Shown here piece after piece: positions 3,001-34,132 of a stretch of 41,001 nt of DNA (its first letter is position 1; each line of letters starts with the position of its first letter). The stretch lies in NCBI GenBank assembly GCA_015485495.1, contig WFTL01000037.1, positions 1 to 41,001 of the forward strand, in the 5' to 3' direction. The notes under the pieces were generated by a model. The model was not told the origin of the DNA. It did no database searches and saw only the letters and a program-made list of their open reading frames with translations. The position numbers and the translations under genes were made by a program. This DNA comes from Planctomycetaceae bacterium. GTDB taxonomy: Bacteria > Planctomycetota > Planctomycetia > Planctomycetales > Planctomycetaceae.

Positions 3001-3249
3001 GTCGGAATCGATCAGGGTGCGGATGTAGCCTGGTCCGGAAACGACGACCTGTCCGACGGCATTGAACGTCAGGCAGAAGATGTCATGGGCCAGACGGTCA
3101 TCCGCATACCGGACGACCTGAAAGCCGTCCGGGACGGACAGCATCGGTTCGTCGACTCCGGACGGGTCGGACTCATCGGCTGCTGCCCAGGGCAGCCGGA
3201 GCAGAAGCAGCGGCAGAGCACACGAAAAGAACAGGACCGGCCGGTTCAT
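1..3249 (-). CDS. PVC-type membrane-bound dehydrogenase / CxxCH cytochrome c protein (3' end cut by window)
   Basis: Reading leftward from the ATG at 3249 gives 1083 open codons with no stop before the window edge. A signal peptide covers about residues 1-23 (MNRPVLFF, then a Leu-rich core). Residues ~35-380 form a beta-propeller of the Piru_Ver_Nterm type (TIGR02604), with sugar-dehydrogenase-like turns such as DSDGDGRAD and RDDDRDGRADGD. Residues ~390-900 are Ala/Leu/Arg-rich HEAT-like repeats. A c-type heme site, CARCH, lies at residues 984-988 (plus-strand 286-300), followed by the family's C-terminal module, which reaches the conserved LMPSDLL at the edge. Probably only 15-30 residues are missing. 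Members are predicted periplasmic redox enzymes on sugars or alcohols; the substrate here is unknown. It follows a Tat protein (153-bp gap) and an RraA gene on the same strand, so it may end that operon. The opposite strand has a long stop-free frame, which is a codon-bias shadow. Confidence 0.93.
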   Translation of the reverse strand, partial: MNRPVLFFSCALPLLLLRLPWAAADESDPSGVDEPMLSVPDGFQVVRYADDRLAHDIFCLTFNAVGQVVVSGPGYIRTLIDSDGDGRADTARPFVESLRTGAQGMCFLGPHLICSADAGLQLYRDDDRDGRADGDPEVFLRIQAGGEHDVHAVRRGPDGWWYVIAGNMAGVHAGYATLTTSPVRNPESGTLLRLKPDLSGGEIFADGFRNAYDFDFSPQGDILTFDSDGERDVSLPWYEPTRVFLVTPRSHAGWISRSWKHPDTFPDMPPLVAEAGRGSPTGVVCYRHTVFPKKYQGALFVLDWTFGRILALRLQQDGSVVRAQPELFASGAEHFGFAPTDIAVGPDGHLYVTVGGRGTQGSVFRIFPTGTDQEESDPPALPPVAENETEMLTAVLQAPQPGASWSRTRWLPLARRLPKDVLEQAALDASRPDNERIRAIEVLTELHGGLSRETVMQLAEAPSAPVRARAVWSLGRVRPASPDGQAVQRYLQDPDPRVLRSALEALSTATDGRTLSRMLPSLLPVLASDDAGVRAAAATVCSRLDDTAWKTLREMLDDRPAARVTAEIGRRARKQDLDLDAIQAALPVLKGSEWSVRQKLDAVRLVQMALGDAGPSRGRAAVFDSVAPRIDLAPHDVALSPLVTLLSDMFPSGHADLDRELLRLLGMLSPVNRDLLPAILDGITADSHPTDDIHRLMVLARIEVERTFDESTATAAALVGLEDKLQQRRMKQDANWDDRIGELYTRLCQVDPALRTVIVDQPGFGRPGHVLLLSEISPDRLQQALDRFVEAMQRETDFEWSNDIVFALAESRNPQHRMLLRGQLDNRSVQGAVLMVLAENPQPDDRSLFVSGLAAVQPDVVESCLNALTRLSGTATPEELFALLSAARRLMHSPEEYRLRETAVRLLQQRTGRTFGFVFGEPGHRPQPQVLQQWGDWLRAQYPDLAPPGSRATAVADFLNRLDDIPWDRGDAQRGERLSGRLGCARCHGGRRALGPDLQGVARRFSRSDLFAAIVDPDRDVSPRYQTTSIVTRDGNVWTGLIVYESVDGLLLRDANLRTWRIEASEIEDRIRQPTSLMPSDLL

Positions 3250-3402
3250 GGGAAAAACCAGAGAGGAGATTTCGGAGGCAGGATGCCGGCAGCAGAGGCC
3301 GGGCATCGGAAGACGGAACACCGCAGGCGGCAGGATAGGAAGTCCGCCTTCCGGACGCAGTCCCGATCTTCGAAAAGCGGACGGACCGCCGGGCGCTGCC
3401 TG

Positions 3403-4695
3403 TTATTGTACGAAGGGGCCTGTCAGGGACAGGTGGGGCGCATGGGGATAGTCGACGGGGCGGTAGTCGATGGCCAGTTCCGGCGTCTGCCGCTGTTTCC
3501 CGCCGGATGCCTTCGACCGCAGCAGGCGGTCCAGGATGCCGGCGGTCAGCACGGTGCGTTCCACCGGCCAGGACGGCTGTCCCGTGTGAATCATCTGTTC
3601 AATTCCGCGCAGCAGAAATGAAAAGTGCGGGAAACGAGGTTCCGTGCGTTCTTCCGCGATGCCTCCGACAGGCGTCTGTCCCCGCACTTTCACCATGACA
3701 GAAATGGCTCGGGCGTATCCGGTCAGCATGAGGACCGGAACGAGAAGTCCGCTGCGGTAGCGAATCAGAAAAATGTGAAAGTCCTTCGGGTCGGCGTCCC
3801 ACAGGCTGCCGTCCTGTGAAGGCGTGCGGTCCAGCAGAGCGTCCAGCAGATCCTTTCTCACGATGCCTTCATCCGTGAGCTGTTTCAGGCGGGATCCCGG
3901 CTGCCACTGCACCCAGTCGACTCCCTGGTGCGCACAGCGCCGGCGTTCGATGATGGACTGCAGAAAATCCAGAGTATGAAATCCGTACACGTCCAGTCCT
4001 GCATAGCCGATGGCCAGCGCGGCTTCCAGGTCGGATTCCATGGGCAGGGTGAAGTCGGGAGAGCGGTAGGACACCGGCAGAGACGATCCGGCCATGAACG
4101 GAATGCGGAGCTGTCGGGACCGTTCATACATCCACCAGGCGTCGTCCCACACCGGACCGGGATGCTTGTCACTGAACACCGGAACGACGGTCCCGTGTTT
4201 TTCGAACGCCGCAGTGATCTGTTCGAAAAACCGGCGCCGCGGATACAGATGCTGGCCCAGAGAATTCCACGGGTAGTCTCCGTGTTCTCCGATGCTGATG
4301 ACCCCGTCCACGGCGATCCGGTCCTGTCCGGCCGTGAGGGCTTCTTCGATGGATTCGCAGATGGGAAATCCGAACTGCTGTGCCTTTTTCACGGCCAGAT
4401 CGCTGTCCGGAAACTGATCGACGTACAGTGATGTGAGTGTCAGGTTCGGTCCGGGACCTCCATCGCAGTTCCAGCCTTCCAGGATGCGGCTGAGCAGCAC
4501 ATCGGCGTGGGAATTGCGGTACCAGACCGTGATCACTCCGGCCACGCGCCGGGGCCTGGAGGAAATGCCTCCGGCCGCGGCCGGAACAGACGCGGAAACG
4601 GTCCGGCCGGTCAGCAGGCCGCCGGTCAGAAGAGCCGCACTGTTTTTCAGGAACTGTCGGCGACCTGAACACTCCGACCGGCATCGTTTCATCAT
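3403..4695 (-). CDS. Tat-exported conserved protein of unknown function
   Basis: The protein has 430 residues. The N-terminus has a twin-arginine motif (RRQFLKN at residues 12-18) before a hydrophobic Ala/Leu/Gly stretch, so export of a folded protein by the Tat system is likely. The body contains blocks I recall from an unnamed family common in Planctomycetota and Verrucomicrobiota: VITVWYRNSHADV, SLYVDQFPDSDL, AVDGVISIGEHGDYP, GQHLYPRR, PVFSDKHPGPVWDDAWWMY and FMAGSSLPVSYR. The first part recalls a Gfo/Idh-like Rossmann fold, but I cannot demonstrate cofactor binding. There are two adjacent ATG codons (4695 and 4692) and AAGG upstream. It lies between RraA (116-bp gap) and the CxxCH protein, all leftward. 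Function unknown. Confidence 0.9.
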   Translation of the reverse strand: MMKRCRSECSGRRQFLKNSAALLTGGLLTGRTVSASVPAAAGGISSRPRRVAGVITVWYRNSHADVLLSRILEGWNCDGGPGPNLTLTSLYVDQFPDSDLAVKKAQQFGFPICESIEEALTAGQDRIAVDGVISIGEHGDYPWNSLGQHLYPRRRFFEQITAAFEKHGTVVPVFSDKHPGPVWDDAWWMYERSRQLRIPFMAGSSLPVSYRSPDFTLPMESDLEAALAIGYAGLDVYGFHTLDFLQSIIERRRCAHQGVDWVQWQPGSRLKQLTDEGIVRKDLLDALLDRTPSQDGSLWDADPKDFHIFLIRYRSGLLVPVLMLTGYARAISVMVKVRGQTPVGGIAEERTEPRFPHFSFLLRGIEQMIHTGQPSWPVERTVLTAGILDRLLRSKASGGKQRQTPELAIDYRPVDYPHAPHLSLTGPFVQ

Positions 4696-4811
4696 TCCGG
4701 ACCTTTCAGGCTGAGCATTCGATCAGGCGAGCATTCCGTCTGGCGGCGGCCGGGGGCGACAACAGAACGGTTCCCGGTGTCGGATCGATCCGCAAAAGGC
4801 CGGCCGTTGTC

Positions 4812-5474
4812 TCACAACACGCCGAATTTTTCATAGGCTTCCGCTGCCTTCATGCCGCCGCGGATATGTTCCCGGATGGCGTTTTCCGTATGAACCTTGT
4901 CCCAGGCTCTTTGAATGGCTTCCTGTTCGATTTCCTGGGGCACCACGACGATTCCGTCGACATCGGCCAGCACCAGATCGTTCGGATGAAAGGTGACACC
5001 CGCAATTTCCACATCGACATCGATTTCGATCACCCGCTGCCGGTTGAGGCTGTCGTAGACGCTGGTTCCCCGGGCGAACACGGGAAACCCCATTTCACGA
5101 ATCCGCACGATGTCGCGGGTGGCTCCGTCCACGATGGCTCCCACGCAGCCCGCGTTGCGCGATGCGGTGGACAGCAGCTCCCCCCACAGTGCCGCATGCA
5201 CCGATCCCCCGGCCGCACAGATCATCACGCTGTCCGGCTGACAGCCGTCCACGGCCTTCAGTTCCAGTTCGTAGGTGTTCGGATCGTCGTGGTAGATGTC
5301 GGCCCACAAAGTCGTTTTGCAGCGACCCACCAGAACGCTGTCCGTCGAGTACGGTGTGAACTGGACGCGGGGAGACTGGTTGGGGTATCCCAGGCCATCC
5401 AGCGCATCGGCGACCACGGCTGCATACAGCGATTCCCGCATCTGCGGGAGCGTGATGGTGGTTGAACGGCTCAT
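4812..5474 (-). CDS. RraA-family protein (HMG/CHA aldolase-like)
   Basis: The 220 residues are full length for the RraA-like superfamily (PF03737), which includes 4-hydroxy-4-methyl-2-oxoglutarate aldolase, oxaloacetate decarboxylases and the RNase E regulator RraA. The diagnostic segment is present: VSDALDG-like AVVADALDGLG near the start, then AALWGELLSTASRNAGC and GAIVDGATRD, which match the metal- and substrate-binding GELL...DGxxRD signature. DVDGIVVVP follows near the C-terminus. A Mg-dependent aldolase or decarboxylase role in the cytoplasm is more likely than RNase E regulation, because the neighbours look catabolic. The start at 5474 has AGGAAA 7 nt upstream. It is transcribed divergently from the M81 gene, with 66 bp between the starts. 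The actual substrate is not deducible. Confidence 0.92.
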   Translation of the reverse strand: MSRSTTITLPQMRESLYAAVVADALDGLGYPNQSPRVQFTPYSTDSVLVGRCKTTLWADIYHDDPNTYELELKAVDGCQPDSVMICAAGGSVHAALWGELLSTASRNAGCVGAIVDGATRDIVRIREMGFPVFARGTSVYDSLNRQRVIEIDVDVEIAGVTFHPNDLVLADVDGIVVVPQEIEQEAIQRAWDKVHTENAIREHIRGGMKAAEAYEKFGVL

Positions 5475-5540
5475 ATCAATTTCCTGTGCGGCAGCCTACG
5501 ATGCGTGTCGGATGGTTTTGTTCTTTCCGGGACATCATCG

Positions 5541-7025
5541 ATGCGTGTGGGAATCATCGGTCTGCTGCACGAATCCAATACGTTCGTGCCGGAACAGACG
5601 ACTCTGGAACATTTCGAACAGGACGTCCTGCTGTCCGGAGAGGCCGTTCGAAATCGATTCGATTCGACCGCTCACGAACTGGGAGGATTCTTCGAGGGAC
5701 TGGAAAGGGAATCTCTGGAAGCGGTTCCCCTGTTCGCGGCCCGGGCCATTCCCTGGGGACCGATCGAATCAGACACATTTCAGCAGCTCCTGAACAGGAT
5801 GCAAACCCAGGTGGCGGCGGCCTCGCCGCTGGACGGCATTCTGGTGGCGCCGCACGGGGCCACCGTGTGCGAATCCGAGCCCGATGCCGACGGACACTGG
5901 CTGCAGCAGCTTCGGCAGCAGATCGGTCCGGAAACACCCATCATCGGCACGCTCGATCCTCACGCCAACCTGTCACCGGCCATGGTGGCGGCCACGGATG
6001 CTCTGGTGGCCTACCGCACCAATCCGCATCTGGATCAGCGGGAACGCGGTGTCGAAGCCGCTTCGCTGATGGCTCGCACTCTGCGCGACGGCATCCGTCC
6101 CGTGCAGCGCGCCGCCTTTCCGCCTCTGGCGATCAACATCGAACGGCAACTGACCCGCGATCCACATCTGCAGCCTCTGTATGCGTCTGCCGAAACGGTG
6201 CGCCGGCTGCCTGAAGTGCTGTCTGCCAGCATTCTGCTGGGATTTCCGTGGGCCGACGTGCCGGAAATGGGATCGGCCGTTCTGGTCGTGACTTCCGGAA
6301 ACGACCGCCTGGCCGCTCAGGAAGCCGCCCGTCTGGCCCGGCAGATGTGGAACAGCCGCCAGGATTTCGTCGGACAGTTCATCAGTCCTGAGCAGGCTGT
6401 GGCCCAGGCGGCCTGTCTGGATGGTCCGGTGTGTCTGCTGGACATGGGAGACAACGTGGGCGGCGGGGCCCCGGGAGACAGCACGCATCTGCTGCACGTG
6501 CTGCGCCGATCGGCCGTGCCGTCCGTGCTGGCCTGTGTGGCGGACGCCCGCGCGGCTGCTCAGGCGGCCGCGGCCGGAATCGGTCAGACGGCCGAACTGG
6601 AAATCGGGGGCTGCCGGGGGCCCGTTTCGGGACCGCCTCTGATCGACCGATTTCAGGTAATGAGCCTGTCGGACGGGCGCTTTTCCGACCAGGATACGCG
6701 TCATGGCGGATTCACGATGTTCGATCAGGGACCGTCTGCCGCGGTGCGTACCGGCGACGGACGGATGACGATTCTGCTGACCACCCGCCGTGTTCCGCCG
6801 TTCAGTCTGAAACAACTGACCAGTTGCGGCCTGGATCCGTCTGCTTACCACGTTGTCGTGGCCAAAGGCGTCAACGCACCGGTGGCCGCCTACGAACCGG
6901 TGTGCCGACATTTCATTCGGGTCGACACGCCCGGCTGCACGGCAGCCCGAATGACACGGCTGAATTATCAGCAGCGCCGTCGCCCTTTGTTTCCGTTCGA
7001 AGACTGTTCCTGGAAGGCCGCATGA
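5541..7025 (+). CDS. M81 family (MlrC-like) metallopeptidase
   Basis: The protein has 494 residues and resembles MlrC, the zinc enzyme that degrades linearised microcystin peptides (PF07364 N-terminal plus PF07171 C-terminal). The family start MRVGIIGLLHESNTF decides the ATG at 5541; an in-frame ATG at 5505 would add 12 atypical residues. Visible motifs are APHGA (103-107), LDPHANLSPAM with D139 and H141 as likely metal ligands, NPHLD with H163 and D165, and the C-terminal-domain signature DMGDNVGGGAPGD (301-313). No signal peptide is seen, so it is probably cytoplasmic. Its TGA stop overlaps the ATG of the next gene, which implies translational coupling. Many family members act on substrates other than microcystin, so a general peptide or amidohydrolase role is the safe reading. 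Confidence 0.93.
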   Translation: MRVGIIGLLHESNTFVPEQTTLEHFEQDVLLSGEAVRNRFDSTAHELGGFFEGLERESLEAVPLFAARAIPWGPIESDTFQQLLNRMQTQVAAASPLDGILVAPHGATVCESEPDADGHWLQQLRQQIGPETPIIGTLDPHANLSPAMVAATDALVAYRTNPHLDQRERGVEAASLMARTLRDGIRPVQRAAFPPLAINIERQLTRDPHLQPLYASAETVRRLPEVLSASILLGFPWADVPEMGSAVLVVTSGNDRLAAQEAARLARQMWNSRQDFVGQFISPEQAVAQAACLDGPVCLLDMGDNVGGGAPGDSTHLLHVLRRSAVPSVLACVADARAAAQAAAAGIGQTAELEIGGCRGPVSGPPLIDRFQVMSLSDGRFSDQDTRHGGFTMFDQGPSAAVRTGDGRMTILLTTRRVPPFSLKQLTSCGLDPSAYHVVVAKGVNAPVAAYEPVCRHFIRVDTPGCTAARMTRLNYQQRRRPLFPFEDCSWKAA

Positions 7026-9592
7026 CAGAAACACCCGAAGATTTTCGTTCTTCCAAAAAACATCAGGACGACCCGTCTGCTGAGGCTCATTCGCCGAGGC
7101 GAAAACGTTTCCGGAAACGCGTTCTGCTGTTCCTGGTGCTGTTGCCGGTGCTTCTGGCGATCGGCGTGGCTGTGATGGTGCCGCGTCTGAACCGGTATCA
7201 GACCGACGGAGTGATTCGCCTGGCCGGGCCGCAGGCGGAAATCACCATCGTCCGGGACGAAAAGGGAATGCCCTTCATCCAGGCAGGCAGTCTGAGGGAC
7301 GTGATTTTCGGACAGGGGTTCGTCACGGCTCAGGACCGGCTGTTTCAGATTCATCTGCTGAAACTGCGGGCCGCCGGCCGGCTGACGGAACTGGCCGGCG
7401 ACGCAGCGAGGGATCTGGATGTTCAGGCCCGTACGATCGGGTTTCGGCGCGTGGCCGAACAGCATGAAGGGATTCTGGATGAACACAACCGGCAGATGTT
7501 TCAGACCTTCGCGGACGGGATCAACGCGTTCGTGGAATCGTGTCCTGGAGATGTGCCGCTGGAATTTCGCCTGGCCGGCCTGACACCGGAACAATGGACG
7601 CCCGTCGATTCGCTCAGCCTGCTGTACCTGATGTCCTGGGACACCAGCGCCAATGTGCGCAGCGAAATCATTTCCCAGGCACTGATCGATGCGGTGGGCC
7701 CGGACCGCGCTGCGCAGATCTTCCCGATCAACGTCAATCCGGATGTCGCTGCCGAAGGCGGGCAGGAATCGGTTTCCGTCCGATCGTTTTTCGACAGCGC
7801 GGCAGCGGCGGTTCCGTCACGGGCTTCCGGGCAGGACCGGCTGAACGTTCTGCAGGACCGGCGTCTGACGAGTCTGCTGGCCGGCGGATCGCTGCATGTG
7901 GGCAGCAACAACTGGGTGACCGGTCCGTCCCGATCGGTCGGAGAACACGCGATTCTCAGCGGAGACCCGCATCTGGATCCCCGCATGCTGCCGGGAATCA
8001 TGTACGCGGTGGGATTTTTCACGCCGGAGATTCGGGCGGTTGGAGCCGGCATTCCGGGGATTCCCGGATTCATCATCGGGCGCAACGAATTCGTGGCGAC
8101 GGCCGTGACCAACAATTACGGAGATGTTCAGGATCTGTATGTGGAAACGGTCGATCCGAACCAGGCCGACCATTACCTGGAAGGCGGACAGTCCGTTCCC
8201 TTCCGAACGGAAACCGAAACCCTGCAGATCAAAGATGCATCGGCGGCCGGCGGCCGGCGCACAGAGACCCTGACGATCCGTTTCACCCGGCGCGGTCCGG
8301 TGGTTTCGGGCATTCTGCCGGGACTGGATTCCGATCGGCTCATCACACTGCGGTGGGCCGCTGCGGAATCGATGCAGCCGGACACCGGTCTGACAGCGCT
8401 GCTCACCGCGAAGTCCGTCGATGATGTCGAAGCGGCCATCGCGTCGGTGACCTCCATTGTGCTCAACTTCGTTTTCGCCGATGCGTCGGGAAACATCGCC
8501 CGGCGGGCCAGCGGAAAACTGCCTCAGCGAACGGCGGGAACCGGCACGCTGCCGACCGTTGTGGATGCCCGGAATCCCTGGACGGACAACTGGCAGGGCT
8601 GGATCCCGTTCGCCGAAATGCCCCATGCCCGGAATCCGGATCGCGGCTGGCTGGGAACCGCCAACCATTATGTGGTTGCGCCGGATTATCCGTACTACTA
8701 CAGCAACTACGCCGCGGCGTCCTTCCGCTACCGTCGGCTGAAGCAGTGCATGGCGGAACATCCGGCCGGCCTGTCGGTCGATGACCACTGGGCCATTCAA
8801 AGAGACACGAAGAATCTGATGGCCGAAGCCGCTGCGGACGTCCTGGCTGACGCTCTCGATGCAGACGAAACGACGCGACCGCTGGCCGATGTGCTGCGCA
8901 CCTGGAATCGGCACGATACGGTCGATCAGGCCGGACCGACCGTGTTCCAGACAGTGTACTGCGAAACGGCGCGAGCCACGTTTCGGGATGATCTGGGTGA
9001 TGACCTGACGGACATGATGCTGGGGACGTGGTACTACTGGCAGGAACGGTTTCTGAAGATGGTTCTGGACGGTCGGTCGCCGTGGTTCGATGATCAGACG
9101 ACAGCCGATCGCACGGAAACACGCGATGACATCATTCGGCAGGCCGGTCGGGCCGTTTTGAACATGCTGGCGCCCCGTCTGGGGCCGGATCCGTCCGAGT
9201 GGCACTGGGGACGGGTGCATACGATCCGTTTCGACAATCCGATTCGTCGGTCCGGAGTCGGCCGGGACTGGCTGGGCACAGCGGATCTGCCGATGGATGG
9301 ATCGGGAGAAACCCTGTACCGCGGCTGGTACGATTTCGATGACCCCCATCGGGTGACGTTTGCGGCGGCTTTGAGAATGGTGGTGGACTTCGGAGATTCA
9401 GACAAGGTGCGGGCTGTGCTGGCCGGCGGTTCCACGGGCCGGACCTTTCATCCGCATCAGAAAGATCAGATCGATGCCTGGCTGACCGGAACGCCGCAGC
9501 ACTGGTGGTTCAGCGATCGGGCCGTTCAGCAGCATGCGCAAAGCCGTCTGAAGCTGGTTCCGGCCGGCGGTCCGGCGGAACCGGCGGACTGA
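7022..9592 (+). CDS. Penicillin acylase family protein (N-terminal nucleophile hydrolase)
   Basis: The protein has 856 residues. It is a membrane-anchored or exported member of the penicillin amidase family (PF01804), whose members cleave amide bonds of penicillins, N-acyl homoserine lactones or other N-acyl compounds. A basic N-terminus (RRKRFRKR) precedes one membrane segment at about 33-53. The alpha-subunit region includes GFVTAQDRLFQIHLLKLRAAGRL. The autocatalytic site is seen at G294-S295: in HVGSNNWV, Ser295 would become the N-terminal nucleophile of the beta chain. GDPHLD follows about 20 residues later, as in the family. The beta chain has the family's TNNYGDVQDLY and TRRGPV. The ATG at 7022 overlaps the stop of the M81 gene (ATGA). 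The substrate is unknown. Confidence 0.94.
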   Translation: MTETPEDFRSSKKHQDDPSAEAHSPRRKRFRKRVLLFLVLLPVLLAIGVAVMVPRLNRYQTDGVIRLAGPQAEITIVRDEKGMPFIQAGSLRDVIFGQGFVTAQDRLFQIHLLKLRAAGRLTELAGDAARDLDVQARTIGFRRVAEQHEGILDEHNRQMFQTFADGINAFVESCPGDVPLEFRLAGLTPEQWTPVDSLSLLYLMSWDTSANVRSEIISQALIDAVGPDRAAQIFPINVNPDVAAEGGQESVSVRSFFDSAAAAVPSRASGQDRLNVLQDRRLTSLLAGGSLHVGSNNWVTGPSRSVGEHAILSGDPHLDPRMLPGIMYAVGFFTPEIRAVGAGIPGIPGFIIGRNEFVATAVTNNYGDVQDLYVETVDPNQADHYLEGGQSVPFRTETETLQIKDASAAGGRRTETLTIRFTRRGPVVSGILPGLDSDRLITLRWAAAESMQPDTGLTALLTAKSVDDVEAAIASVTSIVLNFVFADASGNIARRASGKLPQRTAGTGTLPTVVDARNPWTDNWQGWIPFAEMPHARNPDRGWLGTANHYVVAPDYPYYYSNYAAASFRYRRLKQCMAEHPAGLSVDDHWAIQRDTKNLMAEAAADVLADALDADETTRPLADVLRTWNRHDTVDQAGPTVFQTVYCETARATFRDDLGDDLTDMMLGTWYYWQERFLKMVLDGRSPWFDDQTTADRTETRDDIIRQAGRAVLNMLAPRLGPDPSEWHWGRVHTIRFDNPIRRSGVGRDWLGTADLPMDGSGETLYRGWYDFDDPHRVTFAAALRMVVDFGDSDKVRAVLAGGSTGRTFHPHQKDQIDAWLTGTPQHWWFSDRAVQQHAQSRLKLVPAGGPAEPAD

Positions 9593-9650
9593 CGATGCGG
9601 TGTGTTCAGAATGTTTCCATCGGGATCGACATGACGACCTGGCGTGCGCA

Positions 9651-9656
9651 GAGGAG
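9651..9656 (+). promoter_or_regulatory. Shine-Dalgarno site of the neutral ceramidase gene
   Basis: GAGGAG lies 6 nt before the ATG at 9663. It fixes that start in preference to the in-frame upstream codon at 9600, which would place a Cys-rich leader in front of the signal peptide. Confidence 0.8.
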
Positions 9657-9662
9657 CGGAAC

Positions 9663-11699
9663 ATGACGCGTTCATCAAAGGGCCTGGCGGCGGTGCTGCT
9701 GCTGGTGTTGCCGGCAATTCCTGAGGGAACGGCGGCGGGCAATGACCGGAGCCGCGGGTATCGCATCGGCTGCGGCAGTGCTGACATCACCGGTCCGGTG
9801 ACAGGGGTTCCGTTCTGGGGGTTCGTGCGGGCGGATCAGATCGGGCGCGGGCTGCATCTGCGTCAGCGGGCCCGGGCGTTTCTTGTTATCGATGAACACG
9901 ACAGCCGCCTGGTACTGATTGTCTGCGATCTGGGATCGATCACTCAGGAACTCACGCTGGAAGTTCTGGACCGGCTGCAGCAGGAATTCGGCGATCTGTA
10001 CACGCAGCGCAACGTCATTCTGTCGGCCACGCACACGCATGCGGCTCCGGCGGGTTTCTGGCACGCGGGGGTGGGAACGCCGTTCGGAACGCCGTTTTAT
10101 CGGGAGTACTTCCGGAACATTGTCGACGGTGTCGTGTCGGCCGTGCGGCACGCTCACCGGACGGCCCGTCCCGGCCGCATTCTGCTGGCCCGGGGCGACG
10201 TGCCCGACGCCGGAGTCAATCGGTCTCTGGTGGCGTATATGAACAATCCGGCAGAAGAACGGGCCCGCTATTCCGGCAGCACGGATACGACGATGACCCT
10301 GCTGCGATTCGAAACGGCCGACGGACCGATCGGCTGTCTGAACTGGTTCGCCGTGCATCCGACGACCATGACGTATCACAACCGTCTGGTGTCCGGCGAC
10401 AACAAAGGGTATGCGGAACGGGCCTTTGAAAAAGCAGAAGGCGTGCTGTATCGGCGGCCCGATGATTTCGTGGCAGCGTTCGCGCAGTCGAACTGCGGGG
10501 ACGTCACCGGAAATCTCAACCTGGACAACACCGGACCGGGGGAAACCGAATTCGAAACCACGCGGATCATCGGTCACCGGCAGTATGCGGTGGCCCGGGA
10601 ACTGTTCGAACAGGCGGAAGACGAACTGCACGGGCCGGTGGTTTCGCGTCAGGCGTGGGTGGATCTGTCCTGCGTCCGCGTGCGTCCGGAATTCACCGGC
10701 GGAAGTGAACAAAGGACCGCTCCGGCCGCCTGGGGGTATGCCTTCGCGGCCGGATCGACGGAAGACGGAGGCGGTCATCCGCTGTTCCGGGAAGGCATGA
10801 CCGAACCGGTTCCGCTGCTGGAATTCACTCTGGATCAGCAGTTTCCGGATGCCCGTCCCGACGAACAGCTTCGGAAACTCCACGCCCCGAAGGCCATTTT
10901 GCTGGCGCCGGGAAACAACATGCCGCAGGCGGGGGTGGGCCGTCCCGTGTCGCTGACGGTTGCCCGTCTGGGGCCGCTGGTTCTGGCGGCCGGGCCGGCC
11001 GAATTCACCACGATGGCCGGGCGGCGGATTCGTGACACGCTGCGCCGAGTGTGCGGTCCCGAATCGGTCCGTGATGTCGTGATCGCCGGTTACAGCAACG
11101 GGTACGCCGGATATGTGACGACCCGTGAAGAATACGAAACGCAGCAGTACGAAGGCGGACACACTCTGTTCGGTCCGTGGACTCTGGCCGCTTATCGCCA
11201 GGAATTCGCCGCTCTGGCCGCATCACTCAATGAAGACCCTGTGGAAACGCCGGTTCCCGACCGATTCACGGACCTGCGCGGGCAGGTCACTTCCGCCCCG
11301 CTGGCCGTCGGCCCCGACACCCCGCCGGCGGCCGGACAGTTCGGGGATGTTCTGCTGCCGCCTCAGTCGGCATACCGCCGGGGACAGACCGTCACCGTGT
11401 CCTTCCGGACCGTGAATCCGCGCAACCATTATCCGCATCCGGAATTCGTGCGGGTGGAACGGCAGGAAGCGGCCGGCTGGACGACGGCAGCCATCGATGC
11501 GGACTGGTCCGTGCGCGTGGAATTCGACTGCGACGACGCTTCGCCGGGGGCCTGCCGGATGACCGTGCACTGGACTCCGGAAAACGATTCGCCCGTCGGC
11601 ACCTGTCGCATCGTTCACACCGGTTCCTGGCGTTCGGAAGCCGACGGGCCGGAACAGTCCTTTTCCGGACAGACCGAACCGTTCCGGCTGGACGACTGA
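9663..11699 (+). CDS. Neutral (alkaline, non-lysosomal) ceramidase, complete
   Basis: The protein has 678 residues, close to the ~670 of the Pseudomonas aeruginosa enzyme, which hydrolyses the N-acyl bond of ceramide to sphingosine and fatty acid. A signal peptide covers about residues 1-25. Catalytic-domain motifs (PF04734) are all visible: SATHTH with H124 and H126, VHPTTM with H232, VSGDNKGYA with candidate nucleophile S244, SNCGDVTGN around 276-283, GPAEFTTMAGRR with a candidate zinc-ligand Glu, and GYAGYVTTREEYETQQYEGG with the matching Tyr. The C-terminal Ig-like domain (PF17048) is present from FGDVLLPP through VNPRNHYPHPEF. With all key residues present, an active secreted enzyme is likely. 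It is the third gene of the rightward run, 70 bp after the acylase. N-acyl lipids other than ceramide could be substrates. Confidence 0.96.
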   Translation: MTRSSKGLAAVLLLVLPAIPEGTAAGNDRSRGYRIGCGSADITGPVTGVPFWGFVRADQIGRGLHLRQRARAFLVIDEHDSRLVLIVCDLGSITQELTLEVLDRLQQEFGDLYTQRNVILSATHTHAAPAGFWHAGVGTPFGTPFYREYFRNIVDGVVSAVRHAHRTARPGRILLARGDVPDAGVNRSLVAYMNNPAEERARYSGSTDTTMTLLRFETADGPIGCLNWFAVHPTTMTYHNRLVSGDNKGYAERAFEKAEGVLYRRPDDFVAAFAQSNCGDVTGNLNLDNTGPGETEFETTRIIGHRQYAVARELFEQAEDELHGPVVSRQAWVDLSCVRVRPEFTGGSEQRTAPAAWGYAFAAGSTEDGGGHPLFREGMTEPVPLLEFTLDQQFPDARPDEQLRKLHAPKAILLAPGNNMPQAGVGRPVSLTVARLGPLVLAAGPAEFTTMAGRRIRDTLRRVCGPESVRDVVIAGYSNGYAGYVTTREEYETQQYEGGHTLFGPWTLAAYRQEFAALAASLNEDPVETPVPDRFTDLRGQVTSAPLAVGPDTPPAAGQFGDVLLPPQSAYRRGQTVTVSFRTVNPRNHYPHPEFVRVERQEAAGWTTAAIDADWSVRVEFDCDDASPGACRMTVHWTPENDSPVGTCRIVHTGSWRSEADGPEQSFSGQTEPFRLDD

Positions 11700-27503: not shown

Positions 27504-27511
27504 CGATGGTG

Positions 27512-28153
27512 ATGACGCGTGTGAGCATTTTTCTGCTGCCGATGCTGCTGGCAGCCGCGGCGGTACGGGCCGACGACCCCGATGACCGACCCCGCGCCCA
27601 GGGACAGCTTTCCGAAGACGAACTGGGACAGGCTCTGCAGGCCATCCATCTGAAGCCGACGAAAACCGACAAACGGTACGATTTCGCGTTCAAGACCAGC
27701 ATCAACGGCGAAGAATGGAAATTCAGCATGTCGGCTGTGCTGAGCCGCAATGAAGAATCCATCTGGATCATGGCCTGGCTGGATCAGATTCCCCGCACCG
27801 CCGCCGAGGTCCCGCGAACGGCCCTGCTGCGGCTGCTGGCCGCCAATGACCGCCTGGGAAACGGGAAGTTCTTCGCCTACATCCCGACGAATAAACGATT
27901 CGTTCTGCAACGGGTCGTTCCCAACAAAAACATGACTGTCCGCCGACTGCGGAACGTTCTGCAGGATCTGGCCATCAGCGTCGCCGACGAATATCCAATC
28001 TGGTCGACGGCCGGCTGGAATCCGAAGAAAAACCGTATCGCTGATCAGTCCAGCGGTCGTCCGGTTCCCCGCAATCCGTCGGATCCGACACGGTCCAATC
28101 GTATCCGGGCTTCGGAATCTGCATCGAAATTCAGCAACCGCAGTGTGAACTGA
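27512..28153 (+). CDS. Secreted YbjN-like protein
   Basis: The protein has 213 residues. A signal peptide (MTRVSIFLLPMLLAAAAVRA) begins at the ATG 27512, which the ribosome site favours. The mature part (~55-160) has KRYDFAFKTSINGEEWKFSMSAVLS, IWIMAWLD, LLRLLAANDRLGNGKFFAYIP and LRNVLQDLAISV. This order of strands and helices resembles the YbjN / type III secretion chaperone-like fold, known in planctomycetes as secreted versions. The C-terminal 45 residues are polar and probably disordered. Function unknown. Confidence 0.8.
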   Translation: MTRVSIFLLPMLLAAAAVRADDPDDRPRAQGQLSEDELGQALQAIHLKPTKTDKRYDFAFKTSINGEEWKFSMSAVLSRNEESIWIMAWLDQIPRTAAEVPRTALLRLLAANDRLGNGKFFAYIPTNKRFVLQRVVPNKNMTVRRLRNVLQDLAISVADEYPIWSTAGWNPKKNRIADQSSGRPVPRNPSDPTRSNRIRASESASKFSNRSVN

Positions 28154-28278: not shown

Positions 28279-31200
28279 TCATCGTTTCTGTCGCGTCAGC
28301 CGCACCGAATGCAGTTCGAACAGAGGAAATTCCGGATCCCCGTCCGGTGACAGAGTCAGAGTCAGCAGACCGGGCGACAGTTCCAGAGAACCGGCTTTCC
28401 AGCGGCGCCGTACTCCCGGAGTTCCGGTTCCCGGCACACTGGCGCTCATCTGGCGGGCCTGCGTGGCCAGTTTCAGACGCCCGCCGGCATGCGCATCGGG
28501 GCAGACGTAGTCGAACTCCACGTCCCAGTGCCCCCAGCCGTCTGGACGAATCTGCCAGACAAGCCGGTCTTCCGAAGATGTCCAGCGGACCGCCGAGTCG
28601 GTATCAGCCCGGTAAACGATATTCGGGCCGTAGAATTCGGCCGCCGCAACCGGCAGGATCAGAACGTTGTCTTCAGCAGAGATGCGGCGAGGCAGATTGC
28701 CGGCAAAGCGTTTCCACGGAGTATCGGCCGCCTGCACAAAGGCAATGACATCCGCCAGGTCCTGTTCTGTCAGATCCCGTTCGAATCCTTCCGGCATGAA
28801 GGAACGGCCGGATGCCAGAAGCTGTTCAAGATCCGCACGCAGCAGTTCCCGCGTTTTTCCGTCGCTGCCGACGATGGTCAGAGACGTTTCCGTTTCGTTC
28901 TGTACCAGGCCGGACACGGTCCGCCCGTCGGCCAGCACCGCCGTGTAGCTCAAAAAACGACTTTCCACAGCCCGATTGGGGTCCAGAATGGCCGTCACAA
29001 GAGTCGACACACTGCGGTCGCGCAGGTTCGACAGATCCGCACCGATCTGCTGGCCCGTGTTTTCGAGACGATGACAGACTGCGCATCGACGACGGAACAC
29101 TGCAGCGCCGTCTGAAGGGTCTCCGGACAGCCGTTGCACCCGTGCCGTCCATTCCCGCACAAGCTGCTGCCGCTGCGTCTGCGATGAAAACTTCAGCACC
29201 TGCTGAGCCCGCTGCTGAACAGCGGCGTTCGGATGAGTGAACAGCCGCTCGCGACAGACTGCATCGAGATCGGACCCGGACAGCAGACCGCTTTCAATGC
29301 CATCCAGCAGATCCGCCGCAGATGATTCGCGTTCCACGGCCAGTTCCTGGATCTGACGGCGGCGCTCCGGCGACAGTTCCGACCAGCGGTTCAGAACCGT
29401 TCGAACGGCGCCGACCGATACAAGAGCCTTCAAAGCGGCTTCCTGCAGAAGCGGTGGATGGACGGATCCGGTCAGATCGAGCACGCGATTCCGGAGGCTG
29501 TCCGGCAGATTCTCCAGAGCAGCAAACACTTCCAGAGCGGCTGCCGTGCGGTTCGGGTCCGCATCGTCCAGCAGCATTTCGGCCTGTCTGCCGGTCGCCG
29601 AAACGACCTCTGCTGTGGCGGAATCCGACTGCAGAATCTTTGTGCGGCGTACCATACGAATCATGTCGGCCGCCAGCCGCATTTCAGCGGCCGATGGCCG
29701 CTTTTCGTGTGCCACACGATGCAGAATCTGCTGAATCGAATCGCGGATATCAGCCGTCCTTTCAAACCGGCGTGCCTGATCCATCAGCAGTGCGGTCAGT
29801 TCACGATCGGGATCGGGCCGGCGTCCGACACTTTGCAGCACGTCGATCACTGTATCGGCTGTGAGCGAGGACAGGACGGCCCGACGGATCCATTCGTTTT
29901 TCGGATCCTGAAGCAGAATCCTTCCCAGAAGTTCTCCGGCCTGTTCCGTCGAAACACGGCCCAGTGTGCAGGCGAGCTGCAGACGGACTCCGACATCCGG
30001 ATCGGCGGCCCGTTCTTCCAGAACGGCCGCAAGCTGTTCTTCCGGAATGGGAATGTCTTCCAGCAGGGGAATGGCCCGGCGACGCACGCGGGCATCCGGG
30101 TCGCGCAAAGCAGTCAGCAGACGGGAAACTGAAAGATGACCGGTCATGGCAGCCGTGCACACGGCCTGAAGGCGAACGGCCGGAAGATCGGACGTCCATG
30201 GCAGAGCATTCGTCACAGCATCGGTCCATTCATCCTGGCGATGCTGCAGCAGCCGCTGAGCCGTATCCCGCTGCCACCCGTTCGGACTGCCGATGCGGGC
30301 CGCCAGTTCGGTCAATGGAACAGAACGGCCGTCTGCCACGGACCAGCCGGCACGGGATTTCCACGTGGATGAATCTGCCGGCCGGATGCGATAAATCCGA
30401 CCCATGGAACAGCCGGCTCTCAGGTCCAGACGCATCTGCGCAGACGCGGGAATCCACTGCGGATGTTCAATGACCTGGCGGTACATGTCGCACAGATAGA
30501 TGGCTCCATCCGGTCCCGTGCGCACCATCGTCGGACGAAACCAGTTGTCGGAACTGGCGAGAAATTCGGAGGCTGCTTCTTCAGGAGCCCGCTTTCCACA
30601 GAAGGTGACGCCACAGCGTGTGAGCACCAGACGCGATACCAGATTATGAACCGGCTCGCATGTCAGCGCATTTCCGTACCAGCCGCTTCCCGGCAGCGTG
30701 TCGCGGTAGATGGCTGTGCCGCAGGCAGAAGTGAACCGGTTGACGCTGAAGAAATCGTTGAAGCGCGCCACCGTGCGGCTCACCGGGTACACTCTGGCAG
30801 CTCCCGGTTCAGACGAGACCTGGGCGCGCAGGGATCCGATTCGGGCAAACGGATTCCGCTCGGCATACCGGCTTTCCATCACGTAGTGCCAGATCGGATT
30901 CGAATTGTTGTTTCCGAACCACTGGCCGAAATCGTCCCGTTCGCGGCAGAACTGAGTCTGACCGGCAACTGTTTCCAGGCGTCCGCTGTCCGGATGGAAT
31001 CTCAGATCGCGAAAACGGATGCCGATGCCGTCCGGGTTTTCGGTGTGGTCCATCGGTTCCGGACCCTGCGGACCGGTTCGACTGACAACGCGGACCTTCC
31101 CGCCGCTGTCTCCGTTGGCCAGGTACAGCCAGCCGTCCAGTCCCCACCGCAGTCCGTTGATCCGATGCTGCTGATTGCCTTCTGAAAACCCGGTCAGCAG

Positions 31201-33030
31201 GACGGTCTGTCGATCGCAGATTCCGTCGTCATCGGTGTCTTCGGCGTAGATCACATCGGGAGCGGCCGTGATGATGACACCATCGCGCCACACGCACAGA
31301 CCGGTCGGCCAGGCCGGTCCCTGGAGAAACGTGACGGCCGAATCGTACCGTCCGTCGCCGTCGTCATCGGTCAGAACCCGAACTCTTCCCCCGGTATCGG
31401 CGTTCGGATAATCGCCCATTTCCACAACCCACAGCCGTCCGCGGATATCCCAGTCGAAGGCCACCGGATCCTGAATGAGCGGTTCGGACGCGACCAGCTC
31501 CACCTGGAACCGAGGATGTGTGACAAAGGATGCCAGAGCGTCCTCAGGAGGTTTTGGTCCGGGGTAATCCTGCAGCAGCTTTTCCGAATAGAACCGGTGC
31601 GGCAGAAGCTTCTGAACGGTCCAGCAGATGCGGTCTTCGGTTTCGGGAGACAGACGGCCGGGCAGTCCGAAGTATTTCATGGACGATTCGGCTTCATAGC
31701 CGCCTTCCCGCAGGACGCGCTTCGAAGGAATGTAACACGGCAGGTCGTTGCTGCAGCCGCAGACCCAGAGACGGTCCGCATCGAACATGCTGTTCAGCCT
31801 CAGCGTGTAGTCGATGACCACTTCACCCCCCAGAAACACGACCGCCAGATCATCTCCGAAGACCCATGTCTGCACCGGATAGTTTTCCACGGCTGTCGGC
31901 AGATGCCCGTCACGTTCTGCTTTGGCCACCATTCGGCGGGCCAGGGCGCCGTCGATTCCCGGGAGCCGTGTTCGGGCCTGCCAGTGTTCCAGAGAAGGCA
32001 AAGGTCCGAAAGGAAGGTCGATGTGTTCCAGACGGCACTGCAGCCGCGGATTCACCGGCTGCAGTCCGGATTCTCCGTCCTGTGGCTTCCCTGCCAGAAC
32101 CCGCCGCACCGACTGCGCACAGGTCCGGCCATGTTCGGCCGACAGATCGGCATCTGCGGAGCGCCGAGGATTGATATCGCCTCCGCAGCCGACCGCCACC
32201 AGTGCCACACAGCCGGGATGGTCGGCTTCAATGAAGTCGGCCGCGTATCCCGGCCAGTCTCCGCTGATACGGTTGTGAGCACCCGCGCTGGTGGTGGCAT
32301 GACAGGCGTAGTTCATCACGACTGCCAGAAGCTGTCCGGTGGGTGTGTGAGCGGCCAGAATCGGCAGCCGCCGGTCAACCGGACCATCTGCCGATTCGCC
32401 GCTGACGATCTGTCCGTCTTTCCACACGCGCCGGTTGCGGGCGAAATCGGCCTGTCCGAATCCTGCCGACAGTGTTGCCGGTTTCCGTGCTGCAACGGCC
32501 GCCCGCACCACGTTCACCAGTCTGTCTCGGAGGTTCCGTTCGTACTGAATCAGACGCTGCCTTTCCGCGTCCGTCACATTCACCAGACTCAGCGGCGCGC
32601 AGCTCATGATCCAGGGGGCCGAATGCGTGTGCGTGAACGACACCACGAACCGCTGACGTTCCAGCGGCAGAAAACGTGAGATGTCTTCATAGACGGCATC
32701 GACGAATTCGGATGTCAGTCCGCAGGTGTCCACGGTCAGCAGAACGGCCAGCGGCTGTCGAATCGTCCCGGCCGAGTCGGTGGTCCCGCCAGAGGTGGTT
32801 CCGCCGATGGCCAGGGCGCGGGCATGCAGACGCGACAGGATGCCGTCGGATTCTGTCCGGCGATGGGCATATCCGGCCAGCCGCAGCGGTCGATCCGGCG
32901 TGATGTCCGTGACAGCAGCCCCGACAGGCACCAGCGGCAGTTGATCGTCGGTTGGCCCGGCGGACAATACGGATCCGACGTCGGCGGCGGAAAACAGAAG
33001 AGCACAACAGCAAAGGAGGACAGGACGCAT
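28279..33030 (-). CDS. Ceramidase-like / PVC-type dehydrogenase / cytochrome c fusion protein
   Basis: The protein has 1583 residues from the ATG at 33030, which opens a signal peptide (MRPVLLCCCALLFSAADVGS); the frame extends upstream to 33147 without one. Residues ~30-485 are a neutral-ceramidase-like domain: FTHTHSAPW (H134, H136), NYACHATT (H244), ISGDWPGYA (S256), GCGGDINPR and GGEVVIDY (E403). Residues ~490-880 are a PVC-type dehydrogenase propeller (VASEPLIQDPVAFDWDIRG, DDDGDGRYD). Residues ~900-1300 are HEAT-like repeats. CAVCH, a c-type heme site, is at residues 1316-1320 (plus-strand 29071-29085), followed by the IGADLSNLR and SFMPEGFE tail of the cytochrome module. A beta-rich domain closes the protein (~1410-1583). 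The parts share one frame with no sign of frameshift. It converges on the YbjN-like gene. Confidence 0.93.
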   Translation of the reverse strand: MRPVLLCCCALLFSAADVGSVLSAGPTDDQLPLVPVGAAVTDITPDRPLRLAGYAHRRTESDGILSRLHARALAIGGTTSGGTTDSAGTIRQPLAVLLTVDTCGLTSEFVDAVYEDISRFLPLERQRFVVSFTHTHSAPWIMSCAPLSLVNVTDAERQRLIQYERNLRDRLVNVVRAAVAARKPATLSAGFGQADFARNRRVWKDGQIVSGESADGPVDRRLPILAAHTPTGQLLAVVMNYACHATTSAGAHNRISGDWPGYAADFIEADHPGCVALVAVGCGGDINPRRSADADLSAEHGRTCAQSVRRVLAGKPQDGESGLQPVNPRLQCRLEHIDLPFGPLPSLEHWQARTRLPGIDGALARRMVAKAERDGHLPTAVENYPVQTWVFGDDLAVVFLGGEVVIDYTLRLNSMFDADRLWVCGCSNDLPCYIPSKRVLREGGYEAESSMKYFGLPGRLSPETEDRICWTVQKLLPHRFYSEKLLQDYPGPKPPEDALASFVTHPRFQVELVASEPLIQDPVAFDWDIRGRLWVVEMGDYPNADTGGRVRVLTDDDGDGRYDSAVTFLQGPAWPTGLCVWRDGVIITAAPDVIYAEDTDDDGICDRQTVLLTGFSEGNQQHRINGLRWGLDGWLYLANGDSGGKVRVVSRTGPQGPEPMDHTENPDGIGIRFRDLRFHPDSGRLETVAGQTQFCRERDDFGQWFGNNNSNPIWHYVMESRYAERNPFARIGSLRAQVSSEPGAARVYPVSRTVARFNDFFSVNRFTSACGTAIYRDTLPGSGWYGNALTCEPVHNLVSRLVLTRCGVTFCGKRAPEEAASEFLASSDNWFRPTMVRTGPDGAIYLCDMYRQVIEHPQWIPASAQMRLDLRAGCSMGRIYRIRPADSSTWKSRAGWSVADGRSVPLTELAARIGSPNGWQRDTAQRLLQHRQDEWTDAVTNALPWTSDLPAVRLQAVCTAAMTGHLSVSRLLTALRDPDARVRRRAIPLLEDIPIPEEQLAAVLEERAADPDVGVRLQLACTLGRVSTEQAGELLGRILLQDPKNEWIRRAVLSSLTADTVIDVLQSVGRRPDPDRELTALLMDQARRFERTADIRDSIQQILHRVAHEKRPSAAEMRLAADMIRMVRRTKILQSDSATAEVVSATGRQAEMLLDDADPNRTAAALEVFAALENLPDSLRNRVLDLTGSVHPPLLQEAALKALVSVGAVRTVLNRWSELSPERRRQIQELAVERESSAADLLDGIESGLLSGSDLDAVCRERLFTHPNAAVQQRAQQVLKFSSQTQRQQLVREWTARVQRLSGDPSDGAAVFRRRCAVCHRLENTGQQIGADLSNLRDRSVSTLVTAILDPNRAVESRFLSYTAVLADGRTVSGLVQNETETSLTIVGSDGKTRELLRADLEQLLASGRSFMPEGFERDLTEQDLADVIAFVQAADTPWKRFAGNLPRRISAEDNVLILPVAAAEFYGPNIVYRADTDSAVRWTSSEDRLVWQIRPDGWGHWDVEFDYVCPDAHAGGRLKLATQARQMSASVPGTGTPGVRRRWKAGSLELSPGLLTLTLSPDGDPEFPLFELHSVRLTRQKR

Positions 33031-33295
33031 CGGCAGAAAACCTGGACGCTGAACAGGGGCCGTGTCAACAGCAGGCCCGGTCGGAACGGGATCCGGGAAG
33101 GCGGAAGGAATTGTCACATTACCGCTGCGACACGGCCAGGTCCACAACGGTGTGATCCTTCGAGTGCCGTGGTGCAGACAGCCATTCGGAATCGACGAAC
33201 GGTAGCGACGGTCCCCGGGACGACGGTATGATGCGGGGACAGCGGTGCAGACGATTCGTACACGTCATCGCATGGTCCGTAGAAGGCTGCTTCAC

Positions 33296-34132
33296 ATGCC
33301 CAGAAAGCGGGCGGAAAAGAAGTCGATTCGACAGGCACGGCCTGAAAACAGGTCGGCGGCAGCGGATCAGGACCACCGTACCGACAGTTTTGCATCCGAA
33401 GTGGACCGGTTCATTTCGTCCTACGGAACGTTGGACACAGACGACACATTGCCCGAACGTCCGACACAGGCCGACGAAAAACAGGCGCCCCGGATTCCGG
33501 ATGGACTTCAGATCGTCGGAACGGGACTACTGGTCCAGGCCGGAGCACTGGCCGGTGCTCTGCTGCTGGCGACAGGTCTGCTTCTGGCATGGACTCAGGG
33601 ACGCATTACAGACGAGACACTGTTTCGTTCGTGGCCCCTGCTGGTGATCTGCGCTGTGGTGTTCACAGGTGGTGAAGCGGCAGGGATGACGGCGCCGAAA
33701 TCATCGCATGCGGTGTCTCTGAGTGCAGGGACTCTGGTGTGTACGGTTCTGTATGCAGCCGTTCTGATCGCTCAGCGGCTGGCCGGTTCGGCAACCTGGA
33801 TGATGGTGGTGCTGACAGACCTGACGGAGCTGGTCCTGCTGAGTGCGCGTTTCGTGTTTTCCGGCCTGTTCCTGATGCAGATCGCCCGTTATGCGCAACA
33901 AAAGGCGAATGAAACGCGTGCGGCTTTCGTCATTCCCGGTATTCCGCTCGTCCTGATCATCATGACGGCCTGGTCCTGGTGGGGGCCGACCGTGACGGAA
34001 CAGACCGGCCGGACGTCGCGGCTGCTGATTCGCAGCATTCAGGGCGGCATCGTCCTGACAGGTGCTGCAGCGGCCGTGCTGTACCTGACAATTCTGATCA
34101 CTCTGGGCCGAAATCTCCGGCGCAGACCATAA
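33296..34132 (+). CDS. Integral membrane protein of unknown function
   Basis: The protein has 278 residues from the ATG at 33296, with GAAGG 10 nt upstream; in-frame starts at 33245 and 33272 are possible. A charged N-terminal region of about 70 residues (KRAEKKSIRQ, then DRTDSF and DTDDTLPER) is followed by six hydrophobic segments (roughly 77-100, 112-130, 140-160, 172-197, 213-231 and 248-270). No known family is recognised. The arrangement of a long disordered cytoplasmic head and a membrane bundle is seen in several planctomycete proteins. It is followed by the NHL gene 63 bp downstream on the same strand. Confidence 0.75.
   Translation: MPRKRAEKKSIRQARPENRSAAADQDHRTDSFASEVDRFISSYGTLDTDDTLPERPTQADEKQAPRIPDGLQIVGTGLLVQAGALAGALLLATGLLLAWTQGRITDETLFRSWPLLVICAVVFTGGEAAGMTAPKSSHAVSLSAGTLVCTVLYAAVLIAQRLAGSATWMMVVLTDLTELVLLSARFVFSGLFLMQIARYAQQKANETRAAFVIPGIPLVLIIMTAWSWWGPTVTEQTGRTSRLLIRSIQGGIVLTGAAAAVLYLTILITLGRNLRRRP

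Follow-up and report, generated by a model that had tools for sequence, protein, structure and literature searches.

A ceramidase-like zinc hydrolase, a beta-propeller and a c-type cytochrome are joined in one protein encoded by Planctomycetaceae bacterium (GCA_015485495.1, contig WFTL01000037.1, positions 1-41,001; this whole stretch of 41,001 nucleotides is referred to here as the window). The fusion protein is a member of a large family rather than a single case, and comparison of related sequences indicates at least two independent fusions of the hydrolase with the propeller. Since these fusions are accompanied by one pair in which the same two parts are adjacent genes, functional coupling of the hydrolase with the propeller-cytochrome is supported on grounds of sequence. 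The protein is tentatively regarded, with somewhat less than an even chance of being right, as a fusion of an acyl-sugar deacylase and a sugar oxidoreductase whose acceptor is a heme.

The gene lies on the minus strand at positions 28279..33030, begins with an ATG at 33030 and encodes 1583 residues and a stop, inside a stop-free open frame of 1661 codons in the assembly. All of the following features are on the same strand. At the N-terminus, a signal-peptide-like stretch is recognizable by eye in the translation (residues 1-24; 32959..33030), and the protein is probably secreted or periplasmic. The ceramidase-like zinc hydrolase domain (residues 36-460; 31651..32925), placed by Pfam, alignments and fold comparison, is followed by a DUF7133/TIGR02604 PVC-type beta-propeller (residues 495-885; 30376..31548), placed by Pfam, NCBIfam and fold comparison, and by a helical region of HEAT-like repeats (residues 886-1296; 29143..30375). 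Next comes a TIGR02603 c-type cytochrome domain (residues 1303-1433; 28732..29124), identified by NCBIfam, profile match and fold, which contains the CAVCH heme motif (29071-29085) and the predicted distal heme ligand M1412 (28795-28797). The last 143 residues (1441-1583; 28282..28710) are predicted with high confidence to form a CBM6/35-type jelly roll. In Pfam, the protein matches Ceramidase_alk at 36-271 (E 6e-11), DUF7133 at 495-885 (9e-149), HEAT_2 at 970-1056 (3e-9) and Cytochrom_C at 1307-1434 (7e-6), while the NCBIfam matches are TIGR02604 at 508-885 (5e-85; 286.1 bits, cut-off 122.2) and TIGR02603 at 1303-1433 (6e-32; 110.5 bits, cut-off 68.15), which is the order of PVC-type CxxCH proteins. 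With the heme-binding CxxCH proteins of this type (TIGR02604 plus TIGR02603, DUF7133), the fusion protein shares the propeller, the helical repeats and the cytochrome. The initial annotation, made from the letters alone, is borne out in these respects: the single uninterrupted frame that it described is open over 1583 codons, its motifs THTH, NYACH, SGD, GGE and CAVCH are all in the translation, the ceramidase-like, propeller, HEAT and heme parts are recovered by Pfam and NCBIfam profiles with the three that it named (PF04734, TIGR02604 and TIGR02603) above cut-off, and its C-terminal beta-rich domain is present, with the predicted fold given above.

The family to which this protein belongs is widespread. 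Among the matches listed, a relative of the ceramidase-like domain occurs at E 0.001 in 54 of 59 genomes, the window's own included. When the 40 best and longest-framed loci among these matches were chosen, a selection and not a random draw, the ceramidase-like domain and the propeller were found in one frame in 26 of them, from 25 genomes besides the window's own. Of 572 loci confirmed in named genomes, the best 80 were taken, and 79 of these have the join; the query used for them spans both domains and hence favours joined copies. By record titles, the 80 comprise 52 Planctomycetota, 27 Verrucomicrobiota (three labelled Akkermansia) and one named only 'bacterium'. The sole exception, L115, carries a joined gene broken by a frame change and two different in-frame stops. 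At a strict limit (E 1e-60), 13 of 149 genomes sampled from across the phylum have a close relative, so that the distribution of the family there is patchy. The census of the architecture proposed in the initial annotation thus finds the join again and again, in single-contig genomes too (among them G003, G006, G020 and G047). Its own main worry, a frameshift or assembly error joining two genes, is practically out of the question, because the same join recurs in both sets of loci, single-contig genomes included, and the frame in the assembly is open throughout; an artefact was ruled out on these grounds. In L090, which like L115 bears a Verrucomicrobiota name, a single in-frame stop within the propeller part breaks the joined gene.

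The history of the join was traced in trees of both domains. The tree of the ceramidase-like domain contained 153 domains and an outgroup, with at least 380 residues of the domain required; four loci cut at contig ends (L086, L094, L095 and L117) stand outside it and are called close by identity (58%), L054 and L078 are absent from alignments A1 and A2, and 37 of 40 further stand-alone loci yielded a usable frame. In this tree, 92 of the 100 fused rows form one group (support 99) together with 7 stand-alone rows, and the other 8 fused rows lie deep within a group of 45 stand-alone rows. A single clade of all fused rows was rejected (p-AU 1e-53) in a test that also moves the 7 stand-alone rows. 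The branch to the outgroup is very long (7.2), so that the root of the tree is unsure. In the propeller tree, which held 47 of the 104 fused and 42 other propellers after 17 locus ids had been dropped as duplicates, these 8 rows cluster with propellers that are not fused (99), apart from 38 of the 39 main-type rows (100). One locus, L156, runs against a simple story of two fusions, as its ceramidase-like domain falls in the main fused group (99) and its propeller beside the smaller group (87). In L064, the sister of the 8, both parts are adjacent separate frames on the same strand; the frames overlap by 49 bases, which leaves a small chance that the split is a frame error, though the genome is a single contig. 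Together, the trees of both domains and L064 indicate that the two parts were paired on at least two occasions, with different paralogues of the hydrolase and of the propeller involved.

A third type of fusion, in which a far more distant ceramidase-like domain precedes a main-group propeller, is found in L269, L271 and the second gene of L122, and Pfam places a LamG lectin domain with it in L269 and L271. Because long branches meet in the tree of the wider family, which holds 64 chosen rows, this type is not counted as independent. The contig of L122 carries two ceramidase-propeller fusions head to tail (3-8442): a main-type gene at 3-3494, truncated by the start of the contig, and a third-type gene at 3448-8442. 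Four loci form a group with a similar same-strand propeller gene directly downstream. In addition, a second, very divergent ceramidase-like gene (~440 aa) adjoins all eight loci of the second type and also L064 (L060, L064, L069, L073, L074, L154, L155, L157 and L158).

The hydrolase domain matches the PF04734 profile at 42.1 bits (cut-off 32.1) over positions 3-230 of 509, its first half only. By alignment with the full ceramidase of the window (9600-11699), 2zws and 4wgk, residues H134, H136, R200, H244, E403, Y433 and Y445 correspond to H97, H99, R160, H204, E411, Y448 and Y460 of the Pseudomonas aeruginosa enzyme (PaCD), whose numbers were counted from the alignment, and they presumably take the ligand roles that these seven residues have in PaCD. 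All seven are invariant in 116 of 116 rows, the window included, and in 64 of 64 chosen rows of the wider family. The loss of zinc-binding residues, which the initial annotation had named as a possible objection, is contradicted by this constancy and by the alignment with 2zws and 4wgk. A predicted model of residues 30-885 (mean pLDDT 90.4, pTM 0.83) superimposes on 2zws with Z 36.0 (394 residues aligned, 3.5 A, 20% identity). For human neutral ceramidase, counterparts of four of the seven zinc/catalytic residues are given in the covered part of PMC6952831; the human residues matched to PaCD H99, R160, Y448, Y460 and S274 represent our reading of the alignments. Hydrolysis of an acyl substrate finds support in the zinc amidase site, which is intact.

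The domain shares its fold and the seven residues with neutral ceramidase (2zws from P. aeruginosa, 4wgk from human; PF04734), which differs in having Ser at position 274/354, in possessing PF17048 and in not being joined to a propeller and a cytochrome. At the position of the amidase-motif serine (PaCD Ser274, human Ser354), the window protein has N287; the 100 fused rows have Asn in 97, Asp in two and Arg in one, and the 16 stand-alone rows Asn in 13 and Gly in three. The profile match to 2zws stops short of the position, and the residues were therefore paired by the motif G-[DN]-x-[SN]-P and by MAFFT. For the window's own full ceramidase, HMMER places Thr there and MAFFT puts Asn in that column, so the position is no clean marker. 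The C-terminal ceramidase domain (Ceramidse_alk_C, PF17048) was not found in the fusion protein by Pfam at E up to 0.1, and it is present in the window's other, canonical ceramidase. That the fusion protein is a true ceramidase is made less likely by the Asn and the absent C-terminal domain.

Evidence about the substrate comes from an exchange of hydrolases. In the domain tree, the smallest group with good support that contains the window protein comprises 10 rows (98), and in eight of the other nine a NodB-like domain precedes the ceramidase-like domain in the same frame; when five of these eight were scanned with Pfam, NodB was above cut-off in all five. L081 retains a NodB remnant, the window protein has none, and no match to the NodB domain of L079 was found in the window's genome. 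The alignment of the NodB-like domains displays an Asp-Asp (IDDMRD), H-x3-HP, RxPC and HPHGW, which we take to be a pattern like that of NodB enzymes. Moreover, L267 and L268, from the window's genus, and L270, from another family, consist of NodB, propeller, HEAT repeats and cytochrome without the ceramidase-like domain. Pfam scores for NodB are below the cut-off of 23.1 bits in L267 (21.0) and L270 (18.3), and the kinship rests on identity to the NodB domains of the fused relatives, 54-64% for L267 and 50-55% for L270. Sister proteins thus have a NodB/CE4 polysaccharide deacetylase domain (PF01522) at the N-terminus that either accompanies the ceramidase-like domain or replaces it. Two hydrolases therefore alternate at one place, which makes an acylated sugar likelier than ceramide as the substrate. 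At the same place in different related propeller proteins, a ThuA domain occurs in 4 of 10 N-terminal regions scanned (L272, L276, L278 and L282), a separate fusion theme of the PVC-type family.

The window gene stands alone, as its neighbours at 27506-28153 and 33245-34132 are encoded on the opposite strand and match nothing in Pfam, and no glycan-degradation genes adjoin it. There are 11 close relatives, 10 of which have downstream sequence (L080 does not); the neighbours of L081 and L082 were left out of the scan. Amide-hydrolase genes are directly downstream in six of these 10. A member of the DMFA2_C family, N,N-dimethylformamidase-like, is next on the same strand in L083, L084, L094 and L112 (by Pfam in L083 and L084), and a sulfatase and then a penicillin amidase follow in L086 and L117, which are probably close kin of each other. 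The next gene encodes a PSD/PSCyt protein in L129 and, 258 bases on, a trypsin-like protease in L079. Since the 11 genomes near the window have 14 DMFA2_C and 10 penicillin-amidase matches in all, the proximity is unlikely to be due to chance, though few independent lineages are involved. Among 105 fused loci, with one representative per cluster, DUF1501 (14 loci), PSCyt/PSD (13), protein kinase (11) and sulfatase (10) genes are found nearby; as such genes are common in Planctomycetes, these family-wide neighbours were given no weight. Elsewhere in the window, a row of amide-hydrolase genes occupies 5505-11699 of the plus strand, with an M81/MlrC peptidase at 5505-7025, a penicillin amidase (PF01804) within frame 6431-9592 and, at 9600-11699, a neutral ceramidase of canonical, full-length form that includes the C-terminal domain (E 1e-154). 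The last two lie ~17-22 kb from the fusion gene, so that amide-lipid turnover may yet play a part.

The propeller is less easily assigned. Its sequence profile matches no solved structure up to E 10, and PF07995 is not among the Pfam matches of the fusion protein up to E 0.1. By fold, the best matches are PQQ sugar dehydrogenases, namely 3a9g (Z 26.4), the AA12 enzyme 6i1t (25.8), 2ism and 6jt5 (both 25.5) and sGDH entries down to 22.7, followed by other propellers at 22.3 and below. Profile comparisons with GSDH align one blade only (probability 9% and 36%), and hence PQQ ligands other than the His cannot be assigned. From a weak profile match, H622 is the likely counterpart of the catalytic His144 of sGDH; on the same weak pairing, the position is A in 51, H in 41, Q in 8, G in 3 and W in 1 of the 104 family propellers. 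By contrast with this variable position, 34 positions, many of them polar, are conserved in at least 97% of the 104. In a distant paralogue (contig C60 of G000), PF07995 and DUF7133 match one and the same stretch, a hint of common descent that does not map the site.

The pqqC gene was found in one of the 59 genomes searched, G010, and not in the window's own; 14 control genomes gave no match. PF07995 matches are present in 30 of 30 genomes searched, with a best E below 1e-37 in 29, so the use of scavenged PQQ is possible. E. coli takes PQQ from outside. These bacteria rely either on scavenged PQQ or on something in its place. The PVC-type family itself is large, with 11 to 32 heme-propeller protein matches in each of 15 related genomes and 16 DUF7133 matches in 14 frames in the window's genome, among which only the fusion gene has a PF04734 match at E 0.001. 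Near the contig start, at 2194-3141 on the minus strand and opposite a long plus-strand frame (286-3621), lies another propeller protein of the DUF7133 kind, a divergent one (E 3e-22, open frame 1134).

The heme site, CxxCH plus the distal Met, is kept in 94 of 94 rows. By fold and sequence, the counterpart of this domain is the C-terminal heme domain of the anammox diheme cytochrome c Kustd1711 (7zs0; Z 18.3, 140 residues, 22% identity), whose distal ligand M292 aligns with M1412 in a sequence profile match. The model of the fusion protein's domain has five strands between CxxCH and Met. In the available account of Kustd1711, a five-strand 'nose' is inserted in the C-terminal heme domain and the heme potentials are about +350 mV (PMC11791136). 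The two thus have in common a cytochrome fold with a five-strand insert before the distal Met, and Kustd1711 differs, as far as that account goes, in having two hemes and no enzyme domain (PMC11791136). The C-terminal jelly roll has no Pfam match, hence no CBM family profile, and is recognized by fold: CBM6/CBM35 chains give Z 13.6-15.6, a FucWf4 domain 17.7 and Cry toxin rows 13.6-13.8. This fold is also common to non-CBM proteins such as Cry toxins.

On the preferred reading, the C-terminal CBM6/35-like domain would hold a carbohydrate-containing substrate, and an acyl bond in it, most likely the N-acyl amide of an amino sugar or a comparable compound, would be hydrolysed by the N-terminal zinc domain. 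The propeller would oxidize the same molecule or the product and hand the electrons to the TIGR02603 domain, whose His/Met heme c would pass them to an outside acceptor. Amide cleavage by the zinc site is the best founded of these steps and the redox activity of the propeller the weakest. That redox activity, the sugar substrate, an N-acyl rather than an O-acyl bond, the order of the steps and the path of the electrons are what we infer, the sugar, likelier than ceramide, from the NodB exchange, the CBM-like domain and the propeller fold. Counted against this reading are the variable His144 position, the presence of pqqC in one of 59 genomes, not the window's, the failure of the propeller profile to match solved structures and its one-blade alignment with GSDH, the missing CBM match in Pfam for a jelly roll common to Cry toxins, and a window gene with neither glycan-degradation neighbours nor NodB. 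The initial annotation had proposed that hydrolysis of an N-acyl or similar substrate is directly followed by oxidation of the product; the functional link gains support from the independent fusions and the adjacent pair, acyl hydrolysis from the intact zinc site, and a ceramide-like substrate loses ground to the NodB exchange and the CBM6/35-like fold.

Three other explanations were weighed. It has to be considered, though it is rather unlikely, that the propeller is a glycan-binding or scaffold module, not an oxidoreductase, and the heme an electron shuttle or sensor. The variable His144 position, the rarity of pqqC, the want of sequence kinship to solved propellers and the fact that many unrelated propellers reach Z about 21-22 would all fit such a role, which is harder to reconcile with an invariant heme site and with the many conserved polar positions of the propeller, and PQQ could be taken up from outside, as it is in E. 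coli. It is unlikely that the protein acts on lipids, as a working ceramidase or N-acyl-lipid amidase (for a sphingolipid, sulfonolipid or similar) whose propeller oxidizes the freed head group or long-chain base. The ceramidase fold at Z 36 with all seven catalytic residues, the sulfatase and penicillin amidase after the gene in L086 and L117, and the full ceramidase in the same window are as this explanation would have them; the Asn in 97 of 100 fused rows, the absence of Ceramidse_alk_C, the canonical ceramidase that the genome already has, and the NodB exchange and CBM6/35 fold, which point to sugars, are not.

Quite unlikely is a reverse order of events, in which oxidation of a sugar by the propeller would come first and its product, a lactone or keto-sugar for instance, would then be opened or cleaved by the zinc domain acting as a lactonase or esterase. 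The sugar dehydrogenase fold of the propeller and the ThuA domains joined to related propeller proteins can be cited in its favour, whereas the NodB and ceramidase folds are those of deacylases, with no sign of lactonase activity for either.

The closest analogue in manner of working is the pyranose dehydrogenase of Coprinopsis cinerea (CcPDH, AA12), which according to the covered portions of PMC4332668 and PMC6881789 combines a PQQ propeller, a cytochrome and a carbohydrate-binding module in one chain. The CcPDH propeller is the 6jt5 structure listed above. On the same partial accounts, CcPDH differs in its heme b cytochrome, its CBM1 and its lack of a hydrolase domain (PMC4332668, PMC6881789), and its catalytic His363, equivalent to sGDH His144, has a likely counterpart in the fusion protein that is variable in the family. 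Each domain is known singly, and the joined protein is a variant of the PVC-type heme-propeller proteins, not of ceramidases. Its domain arrangement is probably listed in public domain databases; no paper on the joined architecture, and no characterized member of the PVC-type heme-propeller family, was found in the part of the literature covered.

Independent joins to a hydrolase with known catalytic residues offer a handle on heme-propeller function: the hydrolase predicts the bond, the heme offers a colour read-out of oxidation, and the role of an enlarged family would become testable. It could also emerge that polysaccharide breakdown is coupled directly to electron transport. Further still, and doubtful as it is, these proteins may constitute an undescribed class of secreted 'deacylase-oxidases' of the PVC group, in which an exchangeable zinc deacylase, of ceramidase fold or NodB, strips an amino-sugar polymer of its acyl groups, and the propeller, with a cofactor other than self-made PQQ, oxidizes the freed sugar onto a built-in high-potential heme. 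If this were true, the trimming of polysaccharides would be wired directly into respiration.
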